Shown here: in pieces, positions 3,279 through 59,337 of the stretch
Position numbering within the stretch: position 1 is the first letter of the stretch
Layout: the number at the start of each line of letters is the position of its first letter
DNA from: Nesterenkonia alkaliphila
Lineage (GTDB): Bacteria > Actinomycetota > Actinomycetes > Actinomycetales > Micrococcaceae
DNA: 59,397 nt
Direction: 5' to 3'
Assembly (NCBI RefSeq): GCF_009758175.1
Contig: NZ_WRPM01000088.1
Coordinates: 1-59,397, forward strand
Position numbers and translations under genes: made by a program
The notes under the pieces: model-generated
Seen by the model: only the letters and a program-made list of their open reading frames with translations
What the model was told of the DNA's origin: nothing
Databases searched by the model: none

Positions 3279-4532
3279 TCACGAACCGGCAGCGGCACTG
3301 CTGAGCAGAGTGGCCGCGCAGTCTACGACGACGCCGGCGGCCTGGAGTTTGCCCCCGGCGAAGTGCACTGGCACGTCCTGGCCCAGGACTGCTTGGGCGG
3401 ACTCGGAGGCAAGGATGTGGATCTCGGTATCTTCCCGGCCGAAGACCAGGTTCTCCCCCACCCGGTTGAGCACCAGCAGGTCGCAGCCCTTGCGGGCCAG
3501 CTTCTGCTGGGCCAGCGCCAGGGGCTCGGCGCGGTCGTCTCCGGTCTCAGCGGCGAAGCCGATGATCACTGCTGGGCCGGTGCCGGTCTCGGTTCGCCGC
3601 TGGACTGTTTCGGCGAGGATATCCGGGTTGCGGCTCAGAGTGATGGTGGGGGCGGCGTCGTCGTTGTTGTTCTTGATCTTGGCCGCGGCGTATTCGGCGG
3701 GCCGGAAGTCAGCCACTGCCGCAGCCATGATGAGCACATCGGCGTCCGCGGCCCGCCGGTGGACAGCCTGCTGCAGCTCGGCGGCGGTCTCAATGCGCTC
3801 CACGGTGATATTGGGATGCCCTGCGGGCGGCTGACTCTCGGTGATCCCGGCGATGAGGTGGACTGCGGCACCTGCGGTGGCCGCCTGTTCGGCCAGGGCG
3901 AATCCCTGTTTGCCGGAGGATCGGTTGCCTAGGTAGCGCACCGGGTCCAGGGGTTCACGGGTGCCGCCGGCGGTGACCACCACGCGGCGCCCGGTCAACG
4001 GACCGCTGGGTGCCAGCAGCTGGTCGATCCGGGCTTTGATCTGCTCGGGTTCGGGCAGCCGGCCGGGGCCGGAGTCGGTGCCGGTGAGCCGCCCGGAGGC
4101 AGGCTCCATCACCTCTATGCCGCGGCCGCGCAGCACCTCGACGTTCTCGACGGTGGCCGGGTTGCGCCACATCTCGGTGTGCATGGCGGGCACCAGCAGC
4201 TTGGGCGCCTCGGAGGCCAGCAGCGTGGAGCTCAGCAGGTCACCGGCCGTCCCGGCCCGGGTCCGTGCCAGAAGGTCGGCAGTGGCCGGAGCTACCACGA
4301 TCAGATCGGCCTGCTGCCCCAGCCGGACGTGCCGGACCTCGTCAACACCCTCGAACACGCTGGTGGTGACCGGACGGCCGGTAATCGCCTCCCAGGTGGC
4401 CCGGCCCACGAACTCCAGTGCGGCCGGAGTGGGGATGACCTCCAGCTGGCGGCCGTCCTCTGTGAGGAGCCGGGCCAGGATCACCGCCTTATAGGCGGCG
4501 ATGCCGGCCGAGACTCCTAGGACGATGCGCAC
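3279..4532 (-). CDS. coaBC: Bifunctional phosphopantothenoylcysteine decarboxylase/synthetase
   Basis: CoaBC carries out two consecutive steps of coenzyme A synthesis: ligation of cysteine to 4'-phosphopantothenate (CoaB) and decarboxylation to 4'-phosphopantetheine (CoaC). The N-terminal flavoprotein CoaC half shows VSAGIAAYK near residue 8 and the actinobacterial substrate motif PAMHTEMW near 115. The C-terminal CoaB half has DPVRYLGNRSSGKQG near 205-220. The length of 417 residues is typical. The start is a GTG, 13 bases after the rpoZ stop. Unusually, the gene holds two copies of the dispersed 11-mer GGCGTCGTCGT, encoding GVVV near the C-terminus and DDA further upstream. Confidence 0.96.
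   Translation of the reverse strand: MRIVLGVSAGIAAYKAVILARLLTEDGRQLEVIPTPAALEFVGRATWEAITGRPVTTSVFEGVDEVRHVRLGQQADLIVVAPATADLLARTRAGTAGDLLSSTLLASEAPKLLVPAMHTEMWRNPATVENVEVLRGRGIEVMEPASGRLTGTDSGPGRLPEPEQIKARIDQLLAPSGPLTGRRVVVTAGGTREPLDPVRYLGNRSSGKQGFALAEQAATAGAAVHLIAGITESQPPAGHPNITVERIETAAELQQAVHRRAADADVLIMAAAVADFRPAEYAAAKIKNNNDDAAPTITLSRNPDILAETVQRRTETGTGPAVIIGFAAETGDDRAEPLALAQQKLARKGCDLLVLNRVGENLVFGREDTEIHILASESAQAVLGQDVPVHFAGGKLQAAGVVVDCAATLLSSAAAGS
3325..3335 (-). repeat. Dispersed 11-mer, site 1
   Basis: GGCGTCGTCGT on the minus strand, in coaBC coding for G-V-V-V (GGC GTC GTC GTA). Confidence 0.8.
3654..3664 (+). repeat. Dispersed 11-mer, site 2
   Basis: GGCGTCGTCGT on the plus strand, antisense in coaBC, where it codes N-D-D-A. 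Confidence 0.8.
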
Positions 4533-4545
4533 GTTCTGCGCCTGG

Positions 4546-4809
4546 TTACGCTGCTGCCTCGGCGGCGGGCTTCTTGACCAGCAGGTCCTGGTTGATCTCG
4601 CGCAGGGCGATGGAGAGTGGCTTCTCGTTGAGCTTGGTATCCACCAGGGGGCCGATGTGCTCGAAGAGGCCCTCGTGGAGCTGGGCGTAGTAGTTGTTGA
4701 TCTGGCGGGCCCGCTTGGCGGCGAAGAGGACCAGGGCGTACTTGGACTCCGCCTTGCTCACCAGTTGGTCGATGGGCGGGTCAATGATGCCTTCAAGCTG
4801 CTCAGTCAC
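4546..4809 (-). CDS. rpoZ: DNA-directed RNA polymerase omega subunit
   Basis: Omega is the small RNA polymerase subunit that helps fold and hold beta-prime. The 87-residue protein has the characteristic core [24 protein letters not shown] with the conserved YALV and AKRAR segments near residues 24-35. An alanine-rich tail ends the protein. The start is GTG with GGAA just upstream, eight bases after the gmk stop, so gmk-rpoZ-coaBC are surely co-transcribed. The position between gmk and coaBC is the standard actinobacterial arrangement. Confidence 0.95.
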
Positions 4810-4817
4810 AAAGTTCC

Positions 4818-5402
4818 TTATGCGTTGGTGGTCAGTTCTATGCCCATGCGGGCGATAAGCTCTCTGGCGGCCCGGTCGACATCGTCATTGATGATGGTGA
4901 CGTCGAACTCCGGTTCTGCCGCAAGCTCTATTCTAGCGGTTTCCAGCCGGCGCTGCTGCTCCTCCTCAGATTCGGTGCCGCGGCCGATCAGCCGGTGCAC
5001 CAGATCCTCGAAGGTGGGCGGGGCCAGAAACACGAACTGGGCCTCGGGCAGCTTCGCCCGGACCTGGCGTGCGCCCTGGAGGTCAATTTCCAGCAGCACG
5101 TTCTTGCCCTCGGCCAGGGCGTCCTCGACTGTGCTGCGCAGGGTGCCGTAGCGGTGCTTCTTATGCACCACCGCCCACTCCAGGAAAGCGTCGCGCTCCA
5201 GCAGCTGGTCGAACTGCTCCTCACCCAGAAAGAGGTAGTCCTCGCCGTGGACCTCGCCGGGGCGCGCCGGGCGGGTGGTGGCGGAGACGGAGAAGTGCAC
5301 CTGGGGGAAGGTGCTGCGGATGTATCTGCTCAGTGTGGATTTGCCCACCGAGGTGGGGCCGGCGAGCACGGTCACCCGCGGCGTGGAATCAGTGTTCGGC
5401 AT
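4818..5402 (-). CDS. gmk: Guanylate kinase
   Basis: Gmk phosphorylates GMP or dGMP to the diphosphate with ATP. The 194-residue product has the P-loop GPTSVGKST at residues 15-23, the GMP-binding [17 protein letters not shown] region, and the lid arginines around [17 protein letters not shown]. The ATG chosen shares its A with the mihF TGA (TGATG); a TTG directly in front would add one residue. Overlap with mihF implies translational coupling in the mihF-gmk-rpoZ-coaBC cluster. Confidence 0.96.
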
Positions 5403-5722: not shown

Positions 5723-5774
5723 AGCTATCTCCTTCACTTGCGTTGCGCCCAGCCGGACTTTTCCTATGTGCCAG

Positions 5775-5803: not shown

Positions 5804-5839
5804 TAGGACGTGACACTCATGCAGGGTGAGTAGACGGTG

Positions 5840-6703
5840 TCATTGCAGGTCAGAGCGGGATGACTCGATTGCAGAGATTAGATCTGCCTGGCGGGGGCCG
5901 GCGCGGAGAATACCTCGGGAAGAGCTGACCAGCACCTGGGGCCAGGCCGGACCAAAGCCGCTTCGCAGCTGCTGTGCGGTGGCACCCTGAGCGCCGTATC
6001 CCGGAGCCAGCAGGGGTGGGGAACCGGTAGTGAGGTCGATGCCGTGCTCACCGGCCAGATGCGCGGTGGTGGCCCCCACCACCAGTCCGATGCTGCCCAG
6101 CGGCTGGTCCTGGTACACAGCGTTCGACGACGCCGCCTGGGTGACAATGCTGCCGGCCACAGTGCTCTGCTCCCCATCGGAGTGTCCCTGGGCCAGCTGC
6201 AGCTGCTGTCCCTCGGGGTTGGAGGTCAGGGCCAGCACGAACAGTCCGGCCCCGTACTGCTGGGCGGCTGCCGCTGCGGGGTCCAGCGAGCCGTAGCCGA
6301 GATAGGGGCTCACTGTCAGCGCATCGGCTCCGAAGTCACGCTCCGGGTTCAGCCAGGCCTCGGCATAGGCGGCCATCGTGGAGCCGATGTCCCCACGTTT
6401 TGCGTCGGCCAGGACCAGCAGCCCGGCCTGCTGGGCGGTGCGGATGATCTGGGCCAGTGCTTCCATTCCGGCGATCCCGTAGCGCTCGAAGAACGCCACC
6501 TGGGGTTTGACCACACCGACCCGGTCTGCCGAGGCCTCGATGATCCGGGCACCGAACTCCTGGAGTCCGGCCCCGTCATCGCTCAGACCCCAGTCCTTGA
6601 GCATCCCCGGGTGGGGGTCGATGCCCACACAGAGCTGGCCATAGCGGTCCATGGCCCGGGCCAGCCGTGCGCCGAACGGCGGGCGGGGCCCGGCGCTGCT
6701 CAT
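5840..6703 (-). CDS. pyrF: Orotidine 5'-phosphate decarboxylase, type 2
   Basis: PyrF converts OMP to UMP, the last step of UMP synthesis. The 287-residue protein belongs to the longer type 2 family found in actinobacteria. The catalytic motif reads [13 protein letters not shown] near residues 96-108, with the Lys/Asp/Lys/Asp catalytic array represented by DAKRGD. The ATG overlaps the carB TGA by four bases (ATGA). It is the last gene of the pyrR-to-pyrF operon, so it should respond to PyrR and uridine nucleotides. Confidence 0.95.
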
Positions 6704-10020: not shown

Positions 10021-11297
10021 GGGCGGATGGTCTCCTGTCGTTCGGGGGGGAGGGTCTCGGCTCCGGTGGCGCTGCGGCCGGCCTGATGGGCGGCGATGAG
10101 CTCGGTGAACCGGTCGAAGAGGTAGGCGGAGTCATGCGGGCCGGCCGCGGCCTCCGGATGGTACTGGACACTGAATGCCGGGATGTCCAGGCAGCGCAGG
10201 CCCTCCACCACATGGTCGTTCAATGAGCTGTGGCTGACCTGGACCCGGCCGTAGCGGGATTCCGGAGCGGTGACGGTCTCACCCACCGGGGCGTCCACTG
10301 CGAAGCCGTGATTCTGGCTGGTGATCTCCACCTTTCCGGTGGCATGGTCCATCACCGGCTGATTGATGCCGCGGTGGCCGAAGGGCAGCTTATAGGTGCC
10401 AAAGCCCAGGGCGCGGCCCAGGATCTGGTTGCCGAAGCAGATGCCGAAGAACGGGGTGCCTGAGTCCAGGACCTCGCGCAGCAGCCCGATCTGGGCGCTG
10501 GCGGTGGCCGGATCTCCTGGCCCGTTGGAGAGGAAGACCCCATCCGGGTCCAGCGCCTGGATCTCGGCGAAGCTGGTGGTGGCCGGCAGCACATGGACCC
10601 GCAGGCCACGTTCGGCCATCCGCACCGGGGTCATGGTCTTGATGCCTAGGTCGATGGCGGCCACAGTGCCCAGCGGCTTATCCCGCCAACCGTGCTCGGC
10701 GGGCTCGATGACATAGGCCTGCTCTGTGGTGACCTCCTCGGCCAGCCGGGCGCCGAGCATATCGGGCTGGGTGAGCACAGCGTTGACCAGCTCGGTGTGG
10801 GACCGTGGTGCCCCGGCGTCGTCGTACAGGGCCTCCCCGGAGAAGATGCCGGCCTTCATGGCACCTTTATCGCGCAGGTGCCGGGTGACCGCCCGGGTGT
10901 CGATGTCTTTGATGCCGATGATGCCCTGGGCGGTGAGCTCCTCCTCCAGGCTGCGCGCACTGCGCCAGTTGGAGGGGCGCCGGGAGGCGTCGCGGACCAC
11001 ATAGCCGGCCACCCAGATCCGGCGGGACTCGGGATCCTCATCATTGATCCCGGTGTTGCCGATATGCGGGGCGGTCTGGACTACGATCTGGCGAGCGTAG
11101 CTGGGGTCGGTGAGCGTCTCCTGGTAGCCGGTCATCCCGGTGGCGAAGACGGCCTCACCCAGGGTCTGGCCGGCGGCTCCGTAGCCGCTGCCCGTGTAGA
11201 CGGTGCCGTCCTCCAGCACCAGCAGGGCGGTGCCGGTCCCAGTGTTGCCTTCTCGTCCGGCTGCAGTGGCGCCGGACTTCACGCCTAAAGTACTCAA
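9963..11297 (-). CDS. carA: Carbamoyl-phosphate synthase small (glutaminase) subunit
   Basis: CarA hydrolyses glutamine and channels ammonia to CarB. The class I glutamine amidotransferase triad is present: Cys in [14 protein letters not shown], and the His and Glu of [12 protein letters not shown]. The N-terminal domain carries [15 protein letters not shown]. The frame gives 444 residues, longer than the usual 375-410. It has a low-complexity N-terminus, possibly over-long because the first start is a TTG at 11297 and a GTG follows at 11282, and a tail of about 50 residues after the last family motif that runs 58 bases into carB. Whether the tail is real or reflects a sequence error near 10020-10080 cannot be decided here. 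The TTG overlaps the stop of the preceding gene. Confidence 0.93.
10815..10825 (+). repeat. Dispersed 11-mer, site 3
   Basis: Antisense within carA, coding Y-D-D-A. Confidence 0.8.
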
Positions 11298-11917
11298 AGG
11301 GAAGTCTCACTTTCAGTCAGTGCGGTCAGCTCAGCAAGGAGGGTGCGGCCCTCCTGGACCCGGCGTGGCCGGAACCCGGTGTCCAGGGCATGCTCTCCCA
11401 GGGTCCAACCCAGGATGATAGCCCCGTCCTTCTCCACGAATTTGCCCACCATGCCGCGGTCGGTGCGGGCATAAGCCAGATCTGCGGCGGGAATGAAGAG
11501 GTTGCGCGCACCGGCCCGGAAGATGGCCACACCCTGTTGGTGCACCTCCACCCGACCGGTGGTGCGCAGGCCCAGCTGGTGTACTGCGATCCGGTCCAGG
11601 TACTCACCGCCGGTGACCGAGCCGATCACCATGCCCTCGGCGGCGGCACGGGGTTCCAGATCCAGCAGCTCGGCCGGGATGTCTTCAGGCTCCGGGACAT
11701 CGGACTGGCGGCGCTTGCGGTGCTGCCAGCCCAACCAGATCAGCAGACAGAAGAGTACGACGCCGCCACCGGCGATCCACAGATAGTTCAGGTAAGTGCC
11801 GGTCATCTCTGGGTTCCGGGTCAGAGCGGGAACTGGGTGGCCCAACCCCGGAACCTGAGGTGACACTGCCTGAAGGGCCAGTGCTTGAAGAGACAGTGCC
11901 TGAAGCTCGGGGCTCAT
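11294..11917 (-). CDS. Single-pass membrane protein of pyr operon (PH-like domain, Rv1382 type)
   Basis: This 207-residue protein occupies the slot between pyrC and carA that in Mycobacterium tuberculosis holds Rv1382, annotated there as a probable export or membrane protein. One transmembrane segment ([20 protein letters not shown]) lies near residues 44-65, followed by a basic stop-transfer HRKRRQ and a soluble C-terminal domain of about 140 residues resembling a PH-like fold. The N-terminal 30 residues repeat LQAL/LQAV. The ATG overlaps the pyrC stop (ATGA), but an internal ATG ([10 protein letters not shown]) would give a protein starting just before the membrane segment. Function is unknown; operon membership is clear. 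Confidence 0.75.
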
Positions 11918-13260: not shown

Positions 13261-14249
13261 GCGTGGTCTCCTGTCAGCAGCAGGTGGAGGACGGCCATCC
13301 GTACGGCCACGCCGTTGGTGACCTGTTCAGTGATGCGAGTCTGGGGTGCATCGGCAGCCGCCGCCGAGATCTCCACTCCGCGGTTCATCGGCCCAGGGTG
13401 CAGGATCAGCGCCGGGGACTGGGTCTCACCAAGGGTGAGGTCAGCAACGGTGGCCAGGCGTTCATCGGTGAGCCCCCAGCGGCGGGTGTACTCCGCGGCG
13501 GTGGGGAAGAAGGCTCCGCCCATCCGCTCGGCCTGCACCCGCAGCATCATCACCGCGTCCGGGGCGGCGGCCAGGGCCTGGTCCAAGCTGTAGTGCACGG
13601 TGACCGGCCAGCTCTCCACACCGAGCGGCAGCAGGGTGGCCGGGGCGGCGAAGTGCACTTCAGCCCCCAGAGTGCGCAGCAGCCACAGATTGGATCGGGC
13701 CACGCGGGAGTGCAGAATGTCTCCGACAATCAGCACCCGCATACCGGCCAGGTCGGTGCCGCGGGGGCTGGTGCTGCTGCCGCTGCCCCGGTGGGCAGCA
13801 TGCCAGTCCCGGCGTAGGGTCAGCGCATCCAGCAGCGCCTGGGTGGGGTGCTCATGGGTGCCGTCCCCGGCGTTGACCACTGCGGCCTCGGACCAGTCGG
13901 AGGCGGCCAGCTGGGCGGCAGCTCCGGCGGCGGAGTGCCGGATGACGATCGCATCAGCACCCATCGCATCCAAGGTCTGCACGGTGTCCTTGAGCGACTC
14001 TCCCTTGGACACGGAGGAACCTTTGGCGGAGAAGTTCACCACATCGGCGGAGAGCCGCTTAGCGGCAGCCTCGAAGGAGACCCGGGTACGGGTGGAGTCC
14101 TCGTAGAACAGGTTGACCACAGTGCGTCCGCGCAGGGTGGGCAGCTTCTTGACCTCCCGGGAGGTGACCGCGGCCATCTCCTCAGCGGTGTCCAGGATGG
14201 TGAGGGCGTCGTCGTAGGTCAGCCCCTCCGTGGCCAGCAGATGCCTCAT
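13257..14249 (-). CDS. pyrB: Aspartate carbamoyltransferase catalytic subunit
   Basis: PyrB condenses carbamoyl phosphate with aspartate, the committed pyrimidine step. The 330-residue protein carries the carbamoyl-phosphate loop [12 protein letters not shown] near residue 50, the second loop [12 protein letters not shown] near 79, [13 protein letters not shown], and the aspartate-binding RVQAERMGG. No regulatory subunit pyrI is nearby, as expected in actinobacteria. ATGA overlaps join it to pyrR and pyrC. One copy of the dispersed 11-mer codes for the YDDA at residues 12-15. Confidence 0.96.
14205..14215 (+). repeat. Dispersed 11-mer, site 4
   Basis: Antisense near the 5' end of pyrB, coding Y-D-D-A. 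Confidence 0.8.
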
Positions 14250-15437: not shown

Positions 15438-15448
15438 GGCGTCGTCGT
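15438..15448 (+). repeat. Dispersed 11-mer, site 5 (intergenic)
   Basis: In the 25-base gap between efp and nusB, so not explained by any protein sequence. Confidence 0.8.
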
Positions 15449-16094: not shown

Positions 16095-17396
16095 CTAGGG
16101 GACCGGATTCCGGGAGTCATACCGGAGGAATCCGGGCAGCCACCGGATGAGCAGGGCGGCGATGAGGGCGCAGGCGATGCCTCCCACGATCATGACCCAG
16201 TGCTCGCCGATGGCCTCTCCCACCGAGCCGGAGACCATATCGCCCACCCTGGGGCCGCCGGCGACCACCACGATGAAGACGCCCTGCAGCCGGCCGCGCA
16301 GATGATCCGGCGTGGCCGACTGCAGAATGGTTGAGCGGAAGATCATCGCCACTGAGTCTGCGCTGCCGGCCAGCAGCAGGAAGATCGCAGCGGGCCATAC
16401 CCACCAGGTCAGCGAGCCGCCCTCGGGTAGCGGGTCTCGGGAGGCCAGGAGTACGACGACGCCGAAGCCGCTGACAGCCAGCCCATAGCTCACCACGGCC
16501 CAGAAGGTGGCTGCCCCGTGCCGGTTCATCCGCGTCAGCGGTCCGCTGAAGACCCCGGTGAAGAAGGCACCTGCGGCCATGGCGGCCATCAGGATGCCCA
16601 CGGTCAGTTCCCCGCCACCGATCATCAGGGCACCGATGGCCGGCAGAACCGCCCGGGGCGCGGCCATCACCATGGCGTTGATATCCAGCAGGAAGGTCAT
16701 CCGCACGTTCTTCCGGGTCGAGAGGAACTGGAAGCCCTCCAGGACGGATCGCAGCCCGACCCGGCGGCTGCGTTTGGGGTCCAGCTCCCCCGCTGATCCG
16801 GGCGGCAGCGCGGGCAGCAGCCACAGCGCCCAGAGCGCGGCCAGGAAGGTGACGACTTCGATGGTGTAGGTCCAGGCGTAGCCCACGGTGAGGACCAGGG
16901 TCCCGGCCAGCAGCGGGCCGGCCATCATGGCGATGGAGGCGGTGAGCATATTCAGCGCATTGGCTGCCGGTAGCAGCTCCCGGCCCACCAGGGCAGGGAT
17001 GATCGCGCTTCTGGTGGGCTGATTAACGCCCTGGGCTGCCGAGTGGAGGGCCACCAGCAGGTAGAGCACCCATACATTGCCCAGATCCAGCCAGGCTTGG
17101 GCGGCGATCCCGGCTGCCGAGAGCCATAGGGCCAGCCCGGAGATCAGGGCCACCTTCCGCCGGTCGAAGTTGTCCGCGATCGCCCCACCGTATAGTCCAG
17201 CCGCAACCAGGGGCACCAGCGCGAAGAGTCCCACAAGTCCCACATAGAGGCTTGATGCGGTGAGCTCGTAGACCTGAAGGCTCACCGCAGTCAGGGTGAC
17301 CTGGACTCCGACCGCGGAAATCGCATTGCCCAGCCAGAGCCGGCGGTATGCCGGAGAGACTCTCAGCGGGGTGAGATCAGCGAGCAGGCGGGACAC
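16095..17396 (-). CDS. MFS transporter, EntS-like
   Basis: A 433-residue membrane protein with about 12 predicted hydrophobic segments. It resembles the MFS_3/EntS-type exporters: a start with LRVSPAYRRLWLGNAISAVG, then the loop motif GGAIADNFDRRKVALI near residue 70-85, equivalent to the MFS A-motif between helices 2 and 3. Substrate cannot be read from sequence; relatives export siderophores or drugs. The start is GTG, with TAGACT seven bases upstream suggesting a leaderless transcript. It stands alone between efp and the AbiEi/DUF559 gene, which is transcribed divergently. Confidence 0.82.
   Translation of the reverse strand: MSRLLADLTPLRVSPAYRRLWLGNAISAVGVQVTLTAVSLQVYELTASSLYVGLVGLFALVPLVAAGLYGGAIADNFDRRKVALISGLALWLSAAGIAAQAWLDLGNVWVLYLLVALHSAAQGVNQPTRSAIIPALVGRELLPAANALNMLTASIAMMAGPLLAGTLVLTVGYAWTYTIEVVTFLAALWALWLLPALPPGSAGELDPKRSRRVGLRSVLEGFQFLSTRKNVRMTFLLDINAMVMAAPRAVLPAIGALMIGGGELTVGILMAAMAAGAFFTGVFSGPLTRMNRHGAATFWAVVSYGLAVSGFGVVVLLASRDPLPEGGSLTWWVWPAAIFLLLAGSADSVAMIFRSTILQSATPDHLRGRLQGVFIVVVAGGPRVGDMVSGSVGEAIGEHWVMIVGGIACALIAALLIRWLPGFLRYDSRNPVP
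16453..16463 (-). repeat. Dispersed 11-mer, site 6
   Basis: Sense in the MFS gene, coding G-V-V-V. Confidence 0.8.
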
Positions 17397-18838: not shown

Positions 18839-19999
18839 TCACAGGCTGATCGTGGGGCTGGCCGGCTCGGCGATCTCCTGATACGTGGCGAAGAGGATTG
18901 AAGGATCCGGGATCTCCACAGTGGCCGGTTTGCCGATCCCGGAGAGCAGCACGAACCGCAGCGTCTCCCCGCGATTCTTCTTGTCCCGGCGGATGCCCTC
19001 CAATAGCTGGTTCCACCGGTCATCGCGGTAGCTGACCGGCAGGCCCAAGCTGGTCAGCACCTCGCGGTGCCGGTCGGCATCCCCGTCGGAAAGTCTGCCG
19101 AGGCTGCGCGCCAGCTCAGCGGCGAAGATCATCCCCACCGAGACGGCCGCACCGTGGCGCCACTGGTACCGCTCCGCGTGCTCAATTGCATGCCCCAGGG
19201 TGTGCCCGTAGTTCAGCGATTCGCGCAGCCCGGCCTCGCGGACGTCCTGGCCCACCACTGAAGCTTTGACCCGGATGGCGCGCTCGATCAGCTCGCGCAG
19301 CTCTGCGGACTCGGGGGTCTGGGCAGCCTCCGGATTCTCCTCGATGATCTCCAGGATCCGCTCATCGGCGATGAACCCGCATTTGACCACCTCGGCCAGC
19401 CCGGCCACCAGCTCATTGCGGGGCAGGGTGGCCAGGGTGTCCAGGTCTGCCAGCACGCCTGCGGGCTGGTGGAAGCTGCCCACCAGGTTCTTGCCCTCTG
19501 CGGTGTTGATGCCGGTCTTACCGCCCACCGCGGCGTCGACCATACCCAACAGCGTAGTGGGCATATGCACCACCCGGATGCCGCGCAGCCAGGTGGCGGC
19601 GACGAACCCGGCCAGATCGGTGACTGCTCCCCCACCCACGGCGACCACGGCATCGGTGCGGGTGAAATCGTTCTGGCCCAGCACCTGCCAGCAGAAGGCA
19701 GCCACCTGGATGTGTTTGCCCTCCTCGGCGTCGGGGATCTCCGCAGTGACCGCCTGGTAGCCCGCCTTCTCGAGGTCCTCACGGACCACATCACCGGTTG
19801 CGCGCAGTGCCCGGGGGTGGATCACCAGGACCCGTTCTGCCTGGGCGCCTACCAGTTCGGGAAGCCTGGCCAGCAGACCATTACCCACGACGACGCCGTA
19901 GCCCAGTTCCGGACCGCCAGTACCGTTGCCCTGCCCTACTGTGATCACAGTGGGCTCGGCAGCTGCCGCAGCGCTGCCTTCTGATGCTGATTCACTCAT
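18839..19999 (-). CDS. aroB: 3-dehydroquinate synthase
   Basis: AroB turns DAHP into 3-dehydroquinate using NAD and a divalent metal. The 386-residue protein has the NAD-binding [19 protein letters not shown] near residues 123-141, [19 protein letters not shown] near 150-168, and the metal ligands in [10 protein letters not shown] near 268. An alanine-rich N-terminal stretch precedes the domain. Its ATG overlaps the aroK stop (ATGA). It ends the aroE-aroC-aroK-aroB series, the standard actinobacterial order. Confidence 0.96.
19887..19897 (-). repeat. Dispersed 11-mer, site 7
   Basis: Sense in aroB, coding G-V-V-V near the N-terminus. Confidence 0.8.
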
Positions 20000-26233: not shown

Positions 26234-27583
26234 ATGGCGAGAACCGCCTCTCTCTCCGGCTATCTCGAGCTGCTTCCGGCCGAGCGGCTGGTGGAGCTGC
26301 ATCTGCTGGACACTCTGCGCGAAGTCTTCGAGGCCCACGGCTACTCCAATCTGGAGACTCGTGCGGTGGAGACGGTGGATACCCTGCTGCAGAAGGGCGA
26401 GATCGATAAAGAGATCTACGCGATCTCCAGGATCCATGACGACGACGCCGCCAAGGAGGCCAAACTGGCACTCCGGTTCGACAACACCGTGCCTTTTGCC
26501 CGGTATGTCACCGAGAACGCTGGGCACTTGGCGTTCCCCTACCGCCGCTACCAGATCCAGAAGGTCTGGCGGGGCGAGCGGCCCCAGGCCGGACGGTTCC
26601 GGGAATTCACCCAGGCCGATATCGACATTGTGGGCGAGGGCGCGCTGAGCACCCGCGCCGACGTGGAGATCGCTGTGGTGATGGCCAAAGCACTCCAAAC
26701 CCTGCAGATCGGCGAGTTCACCCTGCGGGTCAACAGCCGCAAGCTCTCAGAGGGGTTCTACCAGGCCATCGGCCTGACTGAGACCGCTGCGGTGCTGCGC
26801 GCGGTGGACAAGCTGGAGAAGATCGGCCCAGACCGAGTGGCTCGGGAGCTCAGCGAAACTGCCGGCGCCACGGAGGAGCAGGCGCGGCAGGCGCTGAGCC
26901 TAGCCCAGATTCGCACTGCTGATACCAGCTTCGCCAGCCAGGTACGTGAGCTGCTCCCCGCTGATGCTGCTGGCGCAGAGCTCCTGGAGGAGGGGCTTGC
27001 TGAGCTGACTGAGGTGGTCGATGAGCTCAATGCGCGGGTGCCCGGCCGAGCTGAGGCCGATCTGTCCATCGCCCGCGGCCTGGACTACTACACCGGCACC
27101 GTCATCGAGACAGTGTTGCGGGGGCACGAGGAGCTGGGTTCCATCTGCTCCGGCGGCCGCTATGAGTCGCTGGCCACCAAGGGCAAGCGGAGCTTTCCCG
27201 GCGTCGGACTCTCCATTGGTGTGACCCGGCTGCTGTCCGCCTTGGTCGACTCTGGTGAGCTGGGGGCTTCGCGCACTGTGCCCACTGCGGTGTACGTGAC
27301 CCTGCGCGCGGATGAGGACTGGGCCGCGGCGCAGGATGTGGCCGATCAGCTGCGCGCCCGCGGCATCAGCGCCGAGGTTGCCTTCAGTGCGGAGAAGTTC
27401 GGCAAGCAGATCAAGTACGCCGATAAGCGCGGGATCCCGTTCGTATGGTTCACTGACGGCGATGGCGGCCATGAGGTCAAGGACATCCGCTCCGGTGAGC
27501 AGACCGCGGCGGATCCGGCCAGCTGGAGTCCTCCGGCGGAGGACCTCACCCCACAGATCATTCACAAGACCGCTGAAGGCTAA
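26234..27583 (+). CDS. hisS: Histidine-tRNA ligase
   Basis: HisRS charges tRNA-His. The 449-residue class II synthetase starts [17 protein letters not shown], the divergent motif 1 region seen in actinobacteria. It has motif 2 [20 protein letters not shown] near residues 99-118, the HisA signature [10 protein letters not shown] near 280, and a C-terminal anticodon-binding domain from about 355. AAGGAG lies some 12 bases before the ATG. aspS begins 14 bases after its stop. An 11-mer copy encodes DDDA in the N-terminal domain. Confidence 0.96.
26439..26449 (-). repeat. Dispersed 11-mer, site 8
   Basis: Antisense in hisS, coding D-D-D-A. Confidence 0.8.
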
Positions 27584-31075: not shown

Positions 31076-31840
31076 TCACCCGCGTTCAGCCTCGATGAGG
31101 TGACGCGTGGAGTGGGCGACGAACGCGCCGTGTTCGCGGATATGCGTATCCATTGCTCTGAGCTTCTCCCTGAAGCGCTCAGCCGTGAATCCAGGAACCC
31201 ACCAGGGACATTTCCGCAGGGTCCAGACGACGGCGCCCACGTCGTAGAACTCCATGCGGCAGCGGGCGGTGCGGAGGTCACGGATCCTCAACCCGGCAGA
31301 CTCCGCCTCCGCTCTTTCCAGCTCGGGATGCCGGCGTCGTCGTATGTGGTCCGGCTGAGGGCCGAGGAAGAACTCGGTGAGCTCGAAAGCCGACTCGGGC
31401 CCGACGTGCTGGGCAAAGTACCGTCCGCCAGGCCCGAGCACCCGGGCCACTTCGCCCCAGGGAGGATCCACCGGGTGCCGACTGGTTACCAGCTCAAAAC
31501 TGGCATCGGGGATCGGCAGCGGGCCGCCCGGCGCAGCCTCAACCACTTCGACCCCACGCGGCTCCAGGCGCTCACGGGCCAGCTGAAGATTGGCCGGCCA
31601 CCCCTCGGTGGCCACCATCCGGGCGGGGAGCACCGGCACTTCGCTCAGCACCTCTCCCCCGCCGGTATCCAGGTCAAGCGCGGAGCTGACCTTGGCCAGC
31701 CGCTCGCTGAGCAGCCAGGCATACCCCCAGGGTGGGCGTTCCTCGGTGGCTCGCCCCTCCAGCCAGCTGAAGCCCCAGCCGCTGACATCTGCCAGCTCCG
31801 CCTCGGCAACCAGCTGCTCGAAATCCCGCATAAGCAGCAT
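31076..31840 (-). CDS. Class I SAM-dependent methyltransferase
   Basis: A 254-residue protein with a Rossmann methyltransferase core. Motif I is ALDLDTGGGEVLSEV near residues 53-67, an acidic end of beta-2 follows (MVATEGWPAN), and the motif IV/V region is ASFELVTSRHPVDPPWGEVARVLGPGG near 113-140. No substrate-specific domain is recognisable; relatives are often called methyltransferase domain 11 or RlmA-like. The ATG at 31840 has GGTGG upstream. An 11-mer copy falls in the run IRRRR near residue 170, read with ATA and CGA codons that are otherwise rare here. Confidence 0.8.
   Translation of the reverse strand: MLLMRDFEQLVAEAELADVSGWGFSWLEGRATEERPPWGYAWLLSERLAKVSSALDLDTGGGEVLSEVPVLPARMVATEGWPANLQLARERLEPRGVEVVEAAPGGPLPIPDASFELVTSRHPVDPPWGEVARVLGPGGRYFAQHVGPESAFELTEFFLGPQPDHIRRRRHPELERAEAESAGLRIRDLRTARCRMEFYDVGAVVWTLRKCPWWVPGFTAERFREKLRAMDTHIREHGAFVAHSTRHLIEAERG
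31333..31343 (+). repeat. Dispersed 11-mer, site 9
   Basis: Antisense in the methyltransferase gene, coding I-R-R-R with ATA CGA CGA CGC, all but the last rare in this window. Confidence 0.8.
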
Positions 31841-32057: not shown

Positions 32058-32732
32058 ATGACCGCACAAGAATCACTGAAGAAGATCCGGGCACGGATGG
32101 TCAAAACCGGGGAGCGCTACACGGCTGCTCGAGCCGCCCTTCTTGCCGCGCCCGAGCCCATACCGAACGGATCCGACTGGGTTTCGGCTCCCCCGCACAG
32201 TGACACCGTCATCCGTGAGAACACCGGCCACAGCTGGAACGAGTGGGTCGCGCTCATCGACGCCGGCCCGGGCCGGGAAGCCGGGCACACCGCCATTGCC
32301 GCCTGGGTCGTGGCGGAGCACGGGGTCGGCGGCTGGTGGGCCCAGGGCGTCACTGTCGGGTACGAACGGATTACCGGGTTGCGGCTTCCTGGTCAGATGC
32401 CGGACGGAACCTTCACTGTCTCCAAGACCAAGAAGCTGGATTTGGACAGCACCGAGTTCCGGGAGCTGCTCAACAACGACGCCGCCCGCGCAGACCTTCT
32501 GCCCGGTCTCACCTCGGCAGCCCGCTCCAAGCCGGGCACCAAAGCGCCCAGGTTCGCCATCGCTGACGCTGTCTCAGGTGAGGACCTCGGCATCCTGCAG
32601 TTCCGGGTCGAGTCTGCATCCTCAGGGGCCAAGCTCGTAGTCACCCATGAGAAGCTCCCAGATATTCAGAGCGCTGAGGTTTGGAAGCAGTACTGGGCTG
32701 ACTGGCTCGAGGACCTAGCTGCCGGGGGCTGA
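32058..32732 (+). CDS. DUF4287 domain protein with SRPBCC-like C-terminus
   Basis: A 224-residue protein. Residues about 55-110 match DUF4287: NEWVALIDAGPGREAGHTAI leading to AEHGVGGWWAQGVTVGYER. The remainder (about 115-220) resembles an AHSA1/SRPBCC-type domain (KKLDLDSTEF, LVVTHEKLPD, WKQYWADWLEDL). Such proteins are common single genes in actinobacteria with unknown role. GAGACGGAG lies just before the ATG. No partner gene is coupled to it. Confidence 0.75.
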   Translation: MTAQESLKKIRARMVKTGERYTAARAALLAAPEPIPNGSDWVSAPPHSDTVIRENTGHSWNEWVALIDAGPGREAGHTAIAAWVVAEHGVGGWWAQGVTVGYERITGLRLPGQMPDGTFTVSKTKKLDLDSTEFRELLNNDAARADLLPGLTSAARSKPGTKAPRFAIADAVSGEDLGILQFRVESASSGAKLVVTHEKLPDIQSAEVWKQYWADWLEDLAAGG

Positions 32733-33659: not shown

Positions 33660-35030
33660 GTGAGCGATCTCTTCTCCGCACCTGGGACAGATGACGACGA
33701 CGCCCCCTCACCAGAACCGGCGGAGGGGCGGCGTCGTCATACTCCCCTAGCAGTCCGAATGCGGCCCCGCTCCCTGGACGAGGTGGTAGGCCAGCAGCAT
33801 CTGCTCAAAGAAGGCTCCCCGCTGCGGGTACTGACCCAGGGCACCACCGGTCCGGCCGGGCCCAGCTCGGTGATTCTCTACGGCCCGCCTGGTACCGGCA
33901 AGACCACTATCGCCCATGTGATCGCCCGGGGCGGCACCCGGAAATTCGTGGAGCTCTCTGCGATCCGGGCCGGGGTGAAAGATGTCCGGCAGGTGATGGA
34001 CCGGGCCCTGGAGGACAGGGATCTGCGGGGTTTGACCACTGTGCTGTTTCTGGATGAGATTCACCGGTTCAACAAAGCGCAGCAGGATGCTCTGCTGCCC
34101 GGGGTGGAGAACGGCTGGGTGATCCTGGTGGCGGCAACCACCGAGAACCCCAGCTTCAGTGTGGTCGCCCCGCTGCTCTCGCGTTCGCTGCTGCTGACCC
34201 TGACCTCGCTGAGCCGGGAGGATCTGGAAGGCCTGGTGGACCGGGCTTTGACCGAGGAGCGCGGGCTGGCTGGCCAGTTCTCCTTGGAGGATGCCGCCCG
34301 GGACCATATTCTGCGGGTAGGCGGCGGGGACGCTCGGCGAGTGCTGACCACTCTCGAGGCGGCTGCCGCAGTCGCTGCTGGCCGGGGCGCTGAGACCATC
34401 ACCGCGGCTGATGCTGAGCAGGCGGCCGACTACGCGGTGCAGCGTTATGACAAGGATGGCGACCAGCACTATGACATCATCTCGGCCTTCATCAAATCCC
34501 TACGGGGCTCGGACGTGGATGCAGCCCTGCACTATCTGGCGCGGATGATCGTCGCCGGGGAGGACCCCAGATTCATCGCCCGCAGGCTGGTGATCGCCGC
34601 CAGCGAGGAAGTGGCGATGGCTGATCCCACCGCCCTGCAGACGGCAGTGGCCGCGGCACAGGCTGTGCAGCTGATCGGGATGCCCGAGGGGCGGATCATC
34701 CTGGCCCAGGCCACCGTACATATCGCCACCGCGCCGAAGTCCAATGCCAGCTATAAGGCGCTGGATGCCGCGATCGCTGACGTACGCGCCGGCAAGGGGG
34801 CCCCGGTGCCAGCGCATCTGCGTGATGCCCACTACAAGGGTGCGCAGCGGCTTGGGCACGGTCAGAACTATGTCTACGCCCACGACCAGCCGCACCATGT
34901 GGCCGCCCAACAGTATGCCCCTGATGATCTGCTCGGCGTGGACTACTACTCCCCCACCCAGAACGGGAACGAGCGCGCGGTGGCGGAGCGGCTAGTCCGG
35001 CTGCGCCAGATCATCCGCGGCACAGACTGA
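33660..35030 (+). CDS. rarA: Replication-associated recombination protein A (RarA/MgsA AAA+ ATPase)
   Basis: RarA is a clamp-loader-like ATPase acting at stalled replication forks. The GTG at 33660 yields 456 residues. Walker [10 protein letters not shown] lies near residue 75, Walker [17 protein letters not shown] near 125, sensor 1 in AATTENPSF near 160, and the C-terminal MgsA tetramerisation domain from about 270 ([18 protein letters not shown]). The first 30 residues are acidic and variable, and hold a copy of the dispersed 11-mer facing a near copy 26 bases later. It typically lies close to aspS, as here, though about 4 kb of other genes intervene. Confidence 0.95.
33694..33704 (-). repeat. 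Dispersed 11-mer, site 10
   Basis: Antisense near the rarA start, coding D-D-D-A; a near copy (GGCGTCGTCAT, 33730-33740) faces it, making an inverted repeat. Confidence 0.8.
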
Positions 35031-38851: not shown

Positions 38852-38862
38852 GGCGTCGTCGT
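38852..38862 (+). repeat. Dispersed 11-mer, site 11 (intergenic)
   Basis: In the gap between ctaE and qcrC, two bases from the ctaE stop. Confidence 0.8.
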
Positions 38863-45920: not shown

Positions 45921-47027
45921 TCACACGCTGCCTCGCTTCGCTCGCAGCTGAGCCATTAGCTTCAGCAGCTCGCGGTTGATCCGGCGGGCCCACATCGGAC
46001 CCTGGTAGATGAACGCCGTATAGCCCTGGACCAGATCTGCGCCTAGTTCCAGCCTCTGGGCTACATCCTCGGCGCTGACCACGCCGCCCACCGAGATGAC
46101 GACGACGCCCTCCGGGAGCCGTTCACGCAGCCTGCCGAGCACCTCCTTGGAGCGCTGCGCCAGCACCGGGCCGCTGAGCCCGCCAGCACCGGCTACCGAC
46201 ACCTTGGCCGCAGGGGTTTCAAGCCCTTCCCGCGAGATCGTGGTGTTGGTGGCGATCACCCCGTCCAGCCCCAGTTCGGTGACCAGATCGGCCACCGCAT
46301 CAATATCCTCGTCTGCCAGATCCGGGGCAATCTTGACCAGTAGGGGCACATGGCTGCCCGCGGCGGCGTCGGCCTCTGTCTGAACCGCCCGCAGCAGCGG
46401 GCGCAGCGAGGCGATCTCCTGAAGCTGTCGCAGCCCAGGGGTGTTGGGACTGGATACGTTGACTACCAGATAGTCGGCCAGCGGGGCCAGTGTGCGGGTG
46501 GAGGTCAGGTAGTCCTCCACTGCGCCTTCCAGGGGCACGATCTTGGTCTTGCCGATGTTCACCCCGATCACAGGAGCGTGCCGGCCGGCTTCGCGCAGCC
46601 GCTGGACCTTTTGCCGGGTGCGCTCCAGTCTCCGTCGCACCGCAGCGGCACCATCATTGTTGAAGCCCATCCGATTAATCAGCGCCTGGTCAGCCAGCAG
46701 GCGGAACAGCCGCGGCCTGGGGTTGCCCGGCTGCGCCTTGGCCGTCACCGTGCCGATCTCGATATGGCCAAAGCCCAGGCTGCCCAGCGGCAGCACAGCG
46801 GAAGCCCCCTTGTCGAAGCCTGCGGCCAGGCCGAACGGCGAGGGGAACTTTTGACCCAGAACCTGCACCGCCAGCTGCTCCTCCGGGCGGGTGAGCGATT
46901 CGAGGATCCGCCCAGCCCCGAGCCGGTGGGCGGCGCGCAGCCCGCGCGTCACCAGGTGGTGGGCCTGCTCCGGATCCATCCGGGAGAAGACAGTGCGGAA
47001 GGCCAGGCTGTAGAGCGGAGCAGACAT
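45921..47027 (-). CDS. pyrD: Dihydroorotate dehydrogenase (quinone), class 2
   Basis: PyrD oxidises dihydroorotate to orotate with FMN, passing electrons to membrane quinone, so it links pyrimidine synthesis to the respiratory chain encoded next door. The 368-residue class 2 form has an N-terminal membrane-binding helix region (ALRTVFSR... DPEQAHHLVT). FGLAAGFDKGA lies near 63, and the catalytic serine is in NVSSPNTPGLRQLQ near 188. It is away from the pyr operon and probably not under PyrR. ATG start with TAGGAT seven bases upstream. Confidence 0.95.
   Translation of the reverse strand: MSAPLYSLAFRTVFSRMDPEQAHHLVTRGLRAAHRLGAGRILESLTRPEEQLAVQVLGQKFPSPFGLAAGFDKGASAVLPLGSLGFGHIEIGTVTAKAQPGNPRPRLFRLLADQALINRMGFNNDGAAAVRRRLERTRQKVQRLREAGRHAPVIGVNIGKTKIVPLEGAVEDYLTSTRTLAPLADYLVVNVSSPNTPGLRQLQEIASLRPLLRAVQTEADAAAGSHVPLLVKIAPDLADEDIDAVADLVTELGLDGVIATNTTISREGLETPAAKVSVAGAGGLSGPVLAQRSKEVLGRLRERLPEGVVVISVGGVVSAEDVAQRLELGADLVQGYTAFIYQGPMWARRINRELLKLMAQLRAKRGSV
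46099..46109 (-). repeat. Dispersed 11-mer, site 12
   Basis: Sense in pyrD, coding G-V-V-V. Confidence 0.8.
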
Positions 47028-48079: not shown

Positions 48080-48876
48080 ACCTTATCGACAGCGGCGCCG
48101 TATCGGCGGTCCCGCTTGGCGTAGATCTCTATCGCCTCCCAGAGCGTGGTGCGGTCCACATCGGGCCAGAGCGTGTCCAAGAACACGAGCTCGGCATAGG
48201 CGGACTGCCAGAGCAGGAAGTTGCTGATCCGCTGCTCCCCCGATGAGCGCAGGAACAGGTCCACCTCTGGTGCATCGGGCTGGTTCAGATGCGCAGCGAT
48301 AGTGGATTCACGGATGTGCTTGGGGTTGAGCTGCCCGGCGGCGGAGCGCTCGGCGATGCTGCGCACCGCATCGGTGATCTCGGCGCGCCCACCATAGTTG
48401 ACGCACATGGTCAGGGTGGCCCGGGTATTGTGCTTGGTCAGTTCCTCGGCGGCCTGCAGCTCTTTGATCACGGAGCGCCAGAGCCTGGGCCGCCGTCCGT
48501 TCCAACGGATCCGCACTCCCCAGGAGTTGAGCACATCACGCTGCCGGCGCAGAACATCGCGGGAGTAGCTCATGATGAAGCGGACCTCCTCCGGGGAGCG
48601 CTTCCAGTTCTCCGTGGAAAACCCGTAGACGCTGACATGCTCCACACCAGCCTCGATGGCACCTGCCATGACTTCCATCAGGCTGTGCTCGCCCGCCCGG
48701 TGCCCCTCAGTGCGCGGTAGGCCGCGCTGGTTTGCCCAGCGCCCGTTGCCGTCCATCACCACTGCCACATGCCGCGGGATCAGCTCAGCGGGCAGCGCAG
48801 GTGCGGTGGCACCGGTCGGATGCGGCCAGGGGTCCTGGTAGGGGGCGTCGTCGTTGGCGGTTCTGCTGGTGGTCAC
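48061..48876 (-). CDS. uppS: Isoprenyl transferase (cis-prenyl diphosphate synthase)
   Basis: This cis-prenyltransferase makes the polyprenyl diphosphate carrier for cell-wall synthesis. The 271-residue protein shows [19 protein letters not shown] near 34-52, with the catalytic Asp, GHRAG after it, the [13 protein letters not shown] motif near 80, and [19 protein letters not shown] near 215-233. GTG start. recO and uppS adjoin in most actinobacteria. Chain length (decaprenyl or shorter) cannot be read directly. Confidence 0.94.
48844..48854 (+). repeat. Dispersed 11-mer, site 13
   Basis: Antisense in the variable N-terminus of uppS, coding N-D-D-A. Confidence 0.8.
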
Positions 48877-55291: not shown

Positions 55292-55319
55292 AAATAGATC
55301 CCGGTGCGGCCCCGGGCGG

Positions 55320-56081: not shown

Positions 56082-56094
56082 GGCCGGGCAGTCC

Positions 56095-57219: not shown

Positions 57220-57232
57220 CAGGTGTCAGTTC

Positions 57233-58264
57233 TCATCCTTCAGAAAGTATTCGGGACAGGTAACGGGCCATTGCGCGCACTGCCGACATCGTGGCGCCAT
57301 AGTCCATCCGGGTGGGGCCCACCACGCCGAGCTTGGCGCCGCGGCCGGATTCGCCTGAGGCGTACTCGGCCGCCACCACTGCGGTCTCCTGCAGCGATTC
57401 ATGGGAGGTCTCCTGGCCGATCCGCACCGAGAGGCCCCGCTGATCCTGCTGCATCTCATGCAGCAGCCGCAGCAGCACCACCTGCTCCTCGAGGGCTTCG
57501 AGGATCGGCCCGATGGCTGGTCCCAGATCACCGCCGGACCTAGCGAGGTTAGCAGTCCCGGCCATGATGATGCGATCCACCCGCCCGGACTCCAGGATGC
57601 TGGTGACCGCATTGGCCACCACCGCCATAGTGGCCCGCAGGGCCGGCTCCACGGAGCTGATGAGGGTGTCCATCGGGATCGGCAGGGCCGAGGCCGAGCG
57701 GTTGTGCAGCTGTTCGGAGAGCTTCTGGCCGATCCGGTGCAGATCCTCCTCGGCAGCCGGCTCGGCCAGGGTGACCATCCGCTGCTCCACCTTGCCGGTG
57801 GAGAGGATCAGGATCACCAGCGCCTTCTGCGCCCCCAGCAGGACCACATCGATATGCCGGATCTTCGCCGAGCTGTGCTGCGGGTGCTGGATGACTGCTA
57901 CCTGGTTAGTGAGCATAGCGAGCAGCCGCACGGTCTGTTCCAGCATCGCCTCGTGGTCATCGGAGGTCTCAGCCAGGATCTCCATGGCCCTGCGCTCCGC
58001 TCGGGTCAGCGGACGCACCTCGGAGATTCGGTCCACGAACAGCCGGTATCCCAGGTCGGTGGGGATGCGCCCGGCCGAGGTGTGCGGGGCGGCGATCAGC
58101 CCGTCCTCCTCCAGCTGGGCCATGTCATTGCGGATGGTGGCCGGGGAGACCTCCAGGTTGTGACGCTCCACCAGGGCTTTGGAGCCCACCGGTTCCCGGG
58201 TGTGGACATAGTCCTCCACGATGGCACGCAGCACCTGCAGCCTGCGGGTGTTGGTATCTGGCAC
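57233..58264 (-). CDS. hrcA: Heat-inducible transcription repressor HrcA
   Basis: HrcA represses groE/dnaJ-type operons by binding CIRCE; GroEL activates it and heat relieves it. The 343-residue protein has the winged helix (RRLQVLRAIVEDYVHTREPV, SPATIRNDMAQLEEDGLI) in the first 65 residues and the HrcA dimerisation/GAF-like domain after. GTG start with AGGAGG five bases upstream. A CIRCE copy lies directly upstream, so the hrcA-dnaJ unit is autoregulated. Confidence 0.96.
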   Translation of the reverse strand: MPDTNTRRLQVLRAIVEDYVHTREPVGSKALVERHNLEVSPATIRNDMAQLEEDGLIAAPHTSAGRIPTDLGYRLFVDRISEVRPLTRAERRAMEILAETSDDHEAMLEQTVRLLAMLTNQVAVIQHPQHSSAKIRHIDVVLLGAQKALVILILSTGKVEQRMVTLAEPAAEEDLHRIGQKLSEQLHNRSASALPIPMDTLISSVEPALRATMAVVANAVTSILESGRVDRIIMAGTANLARSGGDLGPAIGPILEALEEQVVLLRLLHEMQQDQRGLSVRIGQETSHESLQETAVVAAEYASGESGRGAKLGVVGPTRMDYGATMSAVRAMARYLSRILSEG

Positions 58265-58282
58265 GGCACCTCCTCCAACCGG

Positions 58283-58309
58283 TTAGCACTCGACGTTTTC
58301 GACTGCTAA
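58283..58309. promoter_or_regulatory. CIRCE operator upstream of hrcA-dnaJ
   Basis: TTAGCACTC (58283-58291), nine bases, GACTGCTAA (58301-58309): the CIRCE consensus TTAGCACTC-N9-GAGTGCTAA with one mismatch in the right arm. On the minus strand TAGAAT (58309-58314) abuts it and can serve as the -10, so bound HrcA would block initiation. Confidence 0.92.
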
Positions 58310-58449
58310 TTCTACGGCCGATTGAGCCTAGTGACGAGCTGCCGCCAGGCGTGTTCGTCCGAGGCGATTGAAGGCAGTGAGTGCGGCAGCGCGAACCCAA
58401 TGCGGGGCTGCTTGCCATGTCGCAGCACCCAGCAGCAGGCCCGGATTGC

Positions 58450-58455
58450 TAGGCT
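58450..58455 (+). promoter_or_regulatory. Candidate -10 element for DUF3097 gene
   Basis: TAGGCT, nine bases before the ATG, with no Shine-Dalgarno between; a leaderless or nearly leaderless mRNA is suggested. Confidence 0.4.
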
Positions 58456-58464
58456 CACACCGCT

Positions 58465-59337
58465 ATGAGCGCATCCTTCCCCACAGACTGGAGCTCCTGG
58501 GGCGCCCAGGACGTAACAGAACGACGACGCCGTACCCAGCGCACCCTGCCCCAGGTTCCTGCCGCTGTGGGCACCGAGGTGGAGGAGCGCGCCTCCGGGT
58601 GGGTGGGCGTCGTCGTGGGTGTGGAGGCCTCCGGAGGGATCAAGCTGGTCAGGCTGCGTGACTATGACGGCACTGAGCGCGCCTTTCCGCTGGGCTTCGG
58701 CTTCCTGGTGGAGGGTGAGCCGGTGGAGCTGGTGGCGCCGGCAGCCACCGCCAAGCAGGCCGGGCCGCGGCGGACCGCATCAGGGTCCTTCGCATCTGAG
58801 CAGCCCATCCAGGCCCGCACCGCCAGAGCCTCACGGATCTGGGTGGAGGGCACCCATGACGCCGAGCTGGTGGAGAAGGTCTGGGGCGATGACCTGCGCG
58901 AGGTGGGGATAGTGGTGGAGCCGCTGCACGGCGCCGATGATCTTGCTACAGCAGTGCGGATGTTCCAGCCCGGCCCGCAGCGCAGGCTCGGGGTGCTGCT
59001 GGACCATCTGGTGGCAGGCTCCAAGGAGTCGCGGATTGCTGAGCAGACGATGGCACTGCCCGGGGCAGCCGGCAATGTACTGGTGCTGGGTCACCCCTAT
59101 GTGGATGTCTGGCAGGCGGTGAAACCTGAACGGGTGGGCCTGAAGGCATGGCCCCATGTTCCCCGCGGCACGGACATCAAAGTGGGTACTCTGCGGGCCC
59201 TGGGGCTTCCGGCGGCTAACCAGCGGGACATCGCCCACGGCTGGAAGCAGATCCTCTCCCGGGTGCGCAGCTACACCGATCTGGAGCCGAGCCTGCTGGG
59301 CCGGGTGGAGGAGCTCATCGACTTCGTGACGTGTTAG
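58465..59337 (+). CDS. DUF3097 protein
   Basis: A 290-residue protein conserved in actinobacteria. An N-terminal basic segment (TERRRRTQRTLPQVPA) leads to a small beta domain (WVGVVVGVEASGG, RAFPLGFGFLVEGEPVELV). From about residue 120 a TOPRIM-like region follows, with IWVEGTHDAELVEKVWGDDL, GVLLDHLVAGSKESRI and LGHPYVDVWQAVKPE; the conserved Glu, Asp and DH residues suggest metal and nucleic-acid or nucleotide binding. Biochemical role is unknown. The gene often follows hrcA and hemW; hemW is missing here. It contains two copies of the dispersed 11-mer in inverted orientation, one spelled with CGA-CGA-CGC arginine codons. Confidence 0.9.
   Translation: MSASFPTDWSSWGAQDVTERRRRTQRTLPQVPAAVGTEVEERASGWVGVVVGVEASGGIKLVRLRDYDGTERAFPLGFGFLVEGEPVELVAPAATAKQAGPRRTASGSFASEQPIQARTARASRIWVEGTHDAELVEKVWGDDLREVGIVVEPLHGADDLATAVRMFQPGPQRRLGVLLDHLVAGSKESRIAEQTMALPGAAGNVLVLGHPYVDVWQAVKPERVGLKAWPHVPRGTDIKVGTLRALGLPAANQRDIAHGWKQILSRVRSYTDLEPSLLGRVEELIDFVTC
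58521..58531 (-). repeat. Dispersed 11-mer, site 14
   Basis: Antisense in the DUF3097 gene, coding E-R-R-R with GAA CGA CGA CGC. Confidence 0.8.
58606..58616 (+). repeat. Dispersed 11-mer, site 15
   Basis: Sense in the DUF3097 gene, coding G-V-V-V, 74 bases after site 14 and inverted to it. Confidence 0.8.

Follow-up and report, generated by a model that had tools for sequence, protein, structure and literature searches.

A dispersed motif with lineage-specific variants in Nesterenkonia alkaliphila and its relatives, and its candidacy as a DNA-uptake signal

The DNA analysed here is a window of 59,397 nt, contig 92 of 103 in the 3.32 Mb genome of Nesterenkonia alkaliphila. It carries called genes that include coaBC, carA, pyrB, aroB, rarA, pyrD and uppS, and holds 19 sites, within and between these genes, of the short motif GGCG[G/T]CGTCGT (Table 1), which we consider here as a candidate DNA-uptake signal. 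The gene calls are codon-score calls made in this analysis, not curated annotation. Counts beyond the window come from an own-genome sample of 447 kb, made up of the window together with 388 kb taken as 20 stretches of six further contigs, and the control word is the 11-mer reversed, which has the same base composition and provides no control for codons.

A sequence-only reading of the window had picked out one 11-mer, GGCGTCGTCGT (the T form), as a possible genome-wide signal. All 15 exact copies that it gave were located, 8 on the plus and 7 on the minus strand, together with near-copies (GGCGTCGTCGA) at 7927 (plus) and 6124 (minus). The word is as rare by chance as had been estimated: base composition alone predicts 0.08 copies in the window, 100 dinucleotide shuffles give a mean of 0.02, and Markov models of 4th and 5th order predict 0.13 and 0.83. 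It is the most frequent 11-mer in the window, where other, non-overlapping words reach at most 5 copies. The 447-kb sample contains 66 copies, compared with an order-4 expectation of 0.89, and the whole genome contains 399 (195 forward, 204 reverse), compared with 34 (17 on each strand) for the reversed word, so that the predicted genome-wide enrichment is present. Across the genus, counts of 30–399 compare with 8–35 for the control, and the motif exceeds the control in 30 of 30 genomes. Chance or composition as the origin of the word is ruled out by the shuffles, the Markov models and the counts of variants. The base before the motif, said to be always G or C, is so in 15 of 15 window copies; in the larger sample it is so in 58 of 65.

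Table 1. Sites of the motif in the window, with their state in three relatives (G005, G013, G020) where one is given
Positions	Strand	Form	Location	State in relatives
3325..3335	-	T (GGCGTCGTCGT)	within coaBC gene, 3279-4532 (-)	unchanged in G005
3651..3664	+	G (3651) overlapping T (3654), GGCGGCGTCGTCGT	within coaBC	G form unchanged in G005
6127..6137	-	G	within called gene 5840-6703 (-)	not kept in G005, G013, G020
10815..10825	+	T	within carA	unchanged in G005
11757..11767	-	G	within called gene 11294-11806 (-)	T form in G005, G013
14205..14215	+	T	inside pyrB, near start	unchanged in G013, G020; lost in G005
15438..15448	+	T	between called genes	G form in G005
16453..16463	-	T	within MFS-type transporter gene	unchanged in G020
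19887..19897	-	T	within aroB	unchanged in G013; lost in G005, G020
26439..26452	-	T (26439) overlapping G (26442)	gene strand uncertain (two gene callings differ in frame)	G form at T-form place in G005
31333..31343	+	T	in called gene, gene strand uncertain (two callings differ in frame)	unchanged in G020
32476..32486	-	G	within called gene 32058-32732 (+)	T form in G005, G020
33694..33737		T minus (33694-33704), G plus (33727-33737)	inverted pair, hairpin arms	
38852..38862	+	T	between called genes	unchanged in G005
46099..46109	-	T	within pyrD	unchanged in G013; lost in G005, G020
48844..48854	+	T	near uppS start	unchanged in G005
58521..58531	-	T	upstream of called gene 58567-59337 (+)	unchanged in G013
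58606..58616	+	T	within called gene 58567-59337 (+)	unchanged in G020

The word first singled out is real, but it is only one of two forms. Of the 33 single-base variants of GGCGTCGTCGT, 32 have 0–11 copies in 447 kb, while the variant T5G has 68. This G form, GGCGGCGTCGT, is present in 453 copies genome-wide and in six copies in the window. Since the remaining 32 variants are rare, and since the G and T forms swap at orthologous places, the real unit is GGCG[G/T]CGTCGT, and GGCGTCGTCGT is only half of the signal. With overlapping forms merged, the 447-kb sample contains 121 sites, or about one per 3.7 kb. The third base 3′ of the motif is T in 64% of T-form and 63% of G-form copies, and the same position carries T at 39 of 63 intergenic core sites from four genomes of the genus. 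A palindrome, GAAGTGCACTTC, looked like another repeat of the window but was set aside, as it occurs only twice in 447 kb.

Orthologous positions were compared in the nearest relative, G005, which has 84% identity across the window, and in G013 and G020. In G005 the motif is kept at 10 of 15 separate aligned window sites, six of them intact and four with a G/T swap, compared with background identity of 21% for all 11-mers (binomial p 1.7e-4) and 16% for 11-mers of similar composition (p 1.5e-5). Retention is 5 of 12 separate aligned sites in G013 and 6 of 14 in G020, compared with a background of 12–13%; throughout, overlapping forms are merged and a G/T exchange is accepted for the motif while the background counts identity only, which gives the motif a small advantage. 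In these alignments, motif sites outlast their background.

The motif also varies between lineages. Nineteen genomes, each sampled at 77 to 447 kb, share a core, CGNCGTCGT, in which the favoured base at N, its third position, appears to depend on the lineage. Between genes of the own genome, observed and expected counts for N = A, C, G and T are 0/0.2, 1/0.5, 18/0.5 and 11/0.2, and in G002, of the same genus, they are 4/0.2, 0/0.3, 15/0.4 and 12/0.3. The corresponding values are 1/0.2, 13/0.6, 1/0.5 and 0/0.3 in G035 (genus g7) and 0/0.5, 11/0.8, 1/0.9 and 8/0.7 in G048 (g20). Within genes, N = C ranks first or close to first in enrichment in G016 (own genus, where T is as strong as C) and in g7, g20, g25, g31 and g10. 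Compared genome by genome, the dialect is clean in the own genome (G000), G005, G035, G048 and G198, and blurred in G053 and G212. G198, which belongs to the family of the own genome, matches Arthrobacter sp. Leaf337 at 83.6%, which points to Micrococcaceae. G010 and G029 have a weak excess, no higher than 2.2-fold in genes, and between genes G029 has 6 copies against 0.6 for N = C; G030 has a 1.6- to 3.3-fold genic excess and zero intergenic copies. In 364 kb of Streptomyces, genic counts for N = A, C, G and T are 19/39, 59/62, 66/61 and 42/60, and there are 3, 1, 3 and 0 intergenic core copies. Genic excess in other groups is at most 1.4-fold in mycobacteria and Streptosporangiales, about 1.4- to 1.5-fold in Cellulomonadaceae and kin and up to 2.0-fold in Microbacteriaceae. 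Some of these group labels are approximate: 9 loci stand behind Microbacteriaceae(10) and 3 behind Intrasporang(4), and one Terrabacter locus is counted under Nocardioides.

Sites are spread through the own sample at 2.67 per 10 kb (variance 2.94), and neighbouring sites of both forms alternate in direction in 72 of 100 adjacent pairs. Under a null model with gene directions preserved, 50 ± 4.8 pairs alternate, and 0 of 5000 runs reached 72. Neighbours on the same strand are under-represented at distances below 1.5 kb (11% vs 19%), and beyond 100 bases there are 68 alternating pairs to 28 that do not alternate. Among controls, Streptomyces gives 83 of 160, and 16 control 9-mers, which include words overlapping the motif, average 48%. 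Alternation is found in G055 (35/44) and, at short range, in G005 (12/2 at 100–2000 bases); the same adjacent-pair statistic shows none in G002, G013, G016, G048 and G198. For the T form alone, direction changes number 32 of 69 in G018 and about 44 of 79, by hand count, in G000. Since it is lacking in several relatives, alternation is not a family rule. Separate, even tagging of each strand would produce such a pattern. The dispersal, the use of both strands and the conservation would also suit a binding site for a protein that organises the chromosome (of nucleoid, bridging or condensin-related type), with the dialects resulting from co-evolution with that protein, and the alternation in the own genome could suit looping between sites. 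Such a site does not, however, predict the hairpin pairs after genes that are described below, and G002, G013 and G048 show no alternation. We also know of no binder for a site such as GGCG[G/T]CGTCGT, and we consider this explanation unlikely, although it is the chief rival to the uptake reading.

Close pairs of sites have a preferred arrangement outside genes. Of 22 non-coding adjacent pairs no more than 80 bases apart in 13 genomes, 18 are divergent (ACGACGNCG...CGNCGTCGT), 3 convergent and 1 same-direction, while close pairs that include a coding site divide into 17, 10 and 16. Of the 18 divergent non-coding pairs, 17 sit no more than 50 bases past a called gene end, and they fold with 8 to 21 base pairs. 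The pair in the window begins 44 bases past a called gene and ends 21 bases before the rarA call (33759-35030), and has a predicted fold of −33.1 kcal/mol (z −5.2). A search of each genome for the divergent arrangement with any N, in which overlapping matches are counted repeatedly and are raw of codon correction, gave 99–205 matches per genome in g7, 148–185 in g19, 77–118 in g20, 0–135 in g6 and 4–87 in g14, compared with at most 3 for the reversed pattern. Sixteen genomes of the own genus have 2–30, and genera g22, g23 and g12 have 0–3. Genus g3 is split: five genomes have 8–24 matches and twelve have 0–3, and the same five (G107, G142, G214, G223 and G248) are rich in the 11-mer while the 12 others are poor; ComEC is found in all of them. 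This split offers a ready-made comparison for tracing the factors on which the motif depends.

A further survey of the hairpin pattern covered 40 genomes reached through named loci. Arthrobacter has 71 matches, Paenarthrobacter 48, Citricoccus 11 and Rothia 1. Outside the family, where many of the matches listed are not hairpins and counts again lack codon correction, there are 92 in Xylanimonas (L059), 62 in Sediminihabitans (L034), 20, 49 and 60 in three Cellulomonas (two of them L041 and L046), 37 in Blastococcus, 32 in Terrabacter, 24 in Frigoribacterium, 3–15 in four Streptomyces and 4 (control 4) in Mycolicibacterium. Sediminihabitans has clear hairpins among the matches listed, for example at C1:37183-37223. 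As pattern matches are abundant in Xylanimonas, Sediminihabitans, Cellulomonas and others, the inverted-pair arrangement probably extends beyond the family.

The position and stable folding of the divergent pairs could mean that the motif acts in RNA as a transcription-termination element, with the coding copies a by-product, and the T-rich bases 3′ of the intergenic motif in the own genus point the same way. Intrinsic terminators share with the motif the inverted pairs directly after genes, and copies placed as hairpins after genes are what is found for the close non-coding pairs, but not overall. Most copies are single and genic: 103 of the 121 own-sample sites, mostly single, lie inside called genes, where sites are also conserved, and they occur there in both orientations (66 opposite to the gene and 37 in the same direction). 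A termination element is accordingly improbable as the explanation of the motif as a whole. The genic sites show a weak bias to gene ends, with 21 of 103 in the first tenth of genes (Kolmogorov–Smirnov p 0.15).

The placement of copies is shaped by codon fit. Of the 60 genic T-form copies, 31 read nAC GAC GAC GCC and 15 read GGC GTC GTC GTN on the gene strand, and these codon-friendly frames, with the raised counts in other high-GC groups such as Microbacteriaceae, would be expected if the motif were a composition or codon-pair habit of high-GC genomes. However, permutation of synonymous codons gives means of only 8.0 genic copies for the T form and 7.5 for the G form, compared with 60 and 54 observed, and the maximum in 30 runs is 12 for each form; the reversed word has 4 copies compared with 1.5. 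The claim of a genome-wide signal therefore survives a codon-aware model as well as the 4th-order Markov model. In 46 kb of non-coding DNA the T form occurs 6 times compared with 0.02 expected and the G form 14 times compared with 0.05 (order-3 model of non-coding DNA), so the excess over expectation is greater between genes than inside them. The shuffles and this larger intergenic excess exclude synonymous-codon usage as the sole cause, and as variants differing just in the last base are rare and Streptomyces lacks a genic excess, a habit of composition or codon pairing is very improbable. A polar recombination or segregation signal of the Chi or FtsK-orienting polar sequence (KOPS) type, although it too would be short, abundant and dispersed, is the least probable of all, since such sites follow replication direction while the motif has the balanced orientation noted in the sequence-only reading, both genome-wide (195/204) and in the near-complete chromosome of G018, of the own genus (T form 38/32 up to 1.53 Mb and 31/30 beyond, the latter obtained by subtracting from the totals). 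An apparent strand polarity in genus g10 was rejected, the full G198 list being mixed in direction.

Two further observations concern other words in the own genome. A second group exceeds codon expectation in 447 kb, with TCGGTGAGC at 55 copies vs 11.6, TCGGTGACC at 53 vs 14 and GGTGCTCACCG at 16 vs 1.9. On contig 21 (L026, about 1230–2770) there is a CRISPR-like array of 24 exact repeats containing CTATCGAGGAGTGG, with a spacing of 64 bases in all ten spacings listed.

The motif is thus dispersed, specific, conserved, independent of codon usage and non-polar, with copies on both strands and variants between lineages. Its abundance, non-polar use of both strands, genic and intergenic copies, inverted pairs after genes and apparent dialects agree with the DNA uptake sequence (DUS) of Neisseriaceae and the uptake signal sequence (USS) of Pasteurellaceae. 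The receptor of the DUS is the minor pilin ComP. According to passages of PMC3630211, the DUS is likewise short and abundant, lies on both strands inside and between genes, has dialects around a constant core, and forms inverted pairs able to make stem-loops at terminators. It differs from the motif in sequence, phylum and pilus; the motif has fewer copies, and no ComP is expected. The USS, in the accounts given in parts of PMC2346458 and PMC12616744, comprises hundreds to thousands of short motifs in two dialects, with one orientation commoner in reading frame, for which the 66 opposite and 37 same-direction sites are the counterpart here; its sequence and machinery are different, and the bias to gene ends is weak in our case. 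In its anatomy the motif can be described as DUS-like, at a density lower than that of the DUS.

Machinery of the expected kind is present. ComEC was found in the own genome (contig 103) and in 29 of 30 genomes of the genus, and DUF4244, which we take to be an actinobacterial Flp-type pilin family, in the own genome (contig 46) and likewise in 29 of 30. The genomes without a ComEC or DUF4244 match are G028 and G009, which are 82% and 79% complete. A transformable organism for comparison is Micrococcus luteus, which is probably of the same family and, according to part of PMC6370729, transforms via Flp pili and has ComEA and ComEC. The term ‘uptake sequence’ is absent from the main text of two M. 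luteus papers (PMC4322843, PMC8467076), and, among the open-licence papers listed in the literature searches, no title or abstract opening reports an uptake sequence for actinobacteria.

On balance we somewhat favour, at a little better than even chances, the view that GGCG[G/T]CGTCGT is a DUS-like uptake signal for Flp-pilus transformation. The motif, with T favoured three bases after it, would be a short ‘self’ tag for which a DNA receptor on the cell surface, part of a transformation machine of Flp pilus, ComEA and ComEC, has a preference. DNA of close kin would be taken up more readily through the tag, and copies would accumulate because tagged alleles would be imported and recombined more often. 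Three points in this account are inferences: that there is such a receptor, that it is either a component of the pilus or ComEA, and that uptake is increased by the motif.

Several findings weigh against this interpretation. The spacing of about one site per 3.7 kb is below the thousands per genome given for DUS and USS in a passage of PMC3630211. Dialects are not always clean, with genic copies in G053 (g25) and G212 (g31) raised 3.4-fold or more for all four N. Hairpins of the general pattern are scarce in the own genome (9 vs 4 in the control). ComEC occurs in 245 of 245 genomes of the family, including genera with few or no motif copies (g22, g23, g12 and most of g3), and since it is universal in the family it cannot separate motif-bearing from motif-poor lineages; a correlation between motif and ComEC offers no contrast and was set aside. 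The likeness to uptake sequences that the sequence-only reading had proposed has gained from the dialects, the inverted hairpin pairs after genes and the conservation with G/T exchange, but not from the distribution of ComEC.

Self-recognition by DUS and USS is described in a passage of PMC12616744 only for Neisseriaceae and Pasteurellaceae, both proteobacterial families, and the two are considered to have evolved independently. It is possible, though slightly less than an even bet, that the motif is a DNA-uptake signal of a third kind, independent of the DUS and USS; no other would then be known from a Gram-positive phylum or in connection with a Flp/Tad pilus. The signal would consist of CGNCGTCGT with a lineage-specific dialect base, used across Micrococcaceae and perhaps also by families close to it, and in certain lineages alternating sites would tag each strand fairly evenly, as if the receptor reads one strand and a tag is needed on both. 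Should the motif prove to have another role, it would remain a strong and conserved signal across the genome; no description of it was found in the literature searched, and its dialects call for a binder. If the uptake interpretation is true, it would show that self-recognition tags arise repeatedly, with actinobacteria and their different pilus providing a third case, and the question of the receptor would become testable in a transformable Gram-positive organism.

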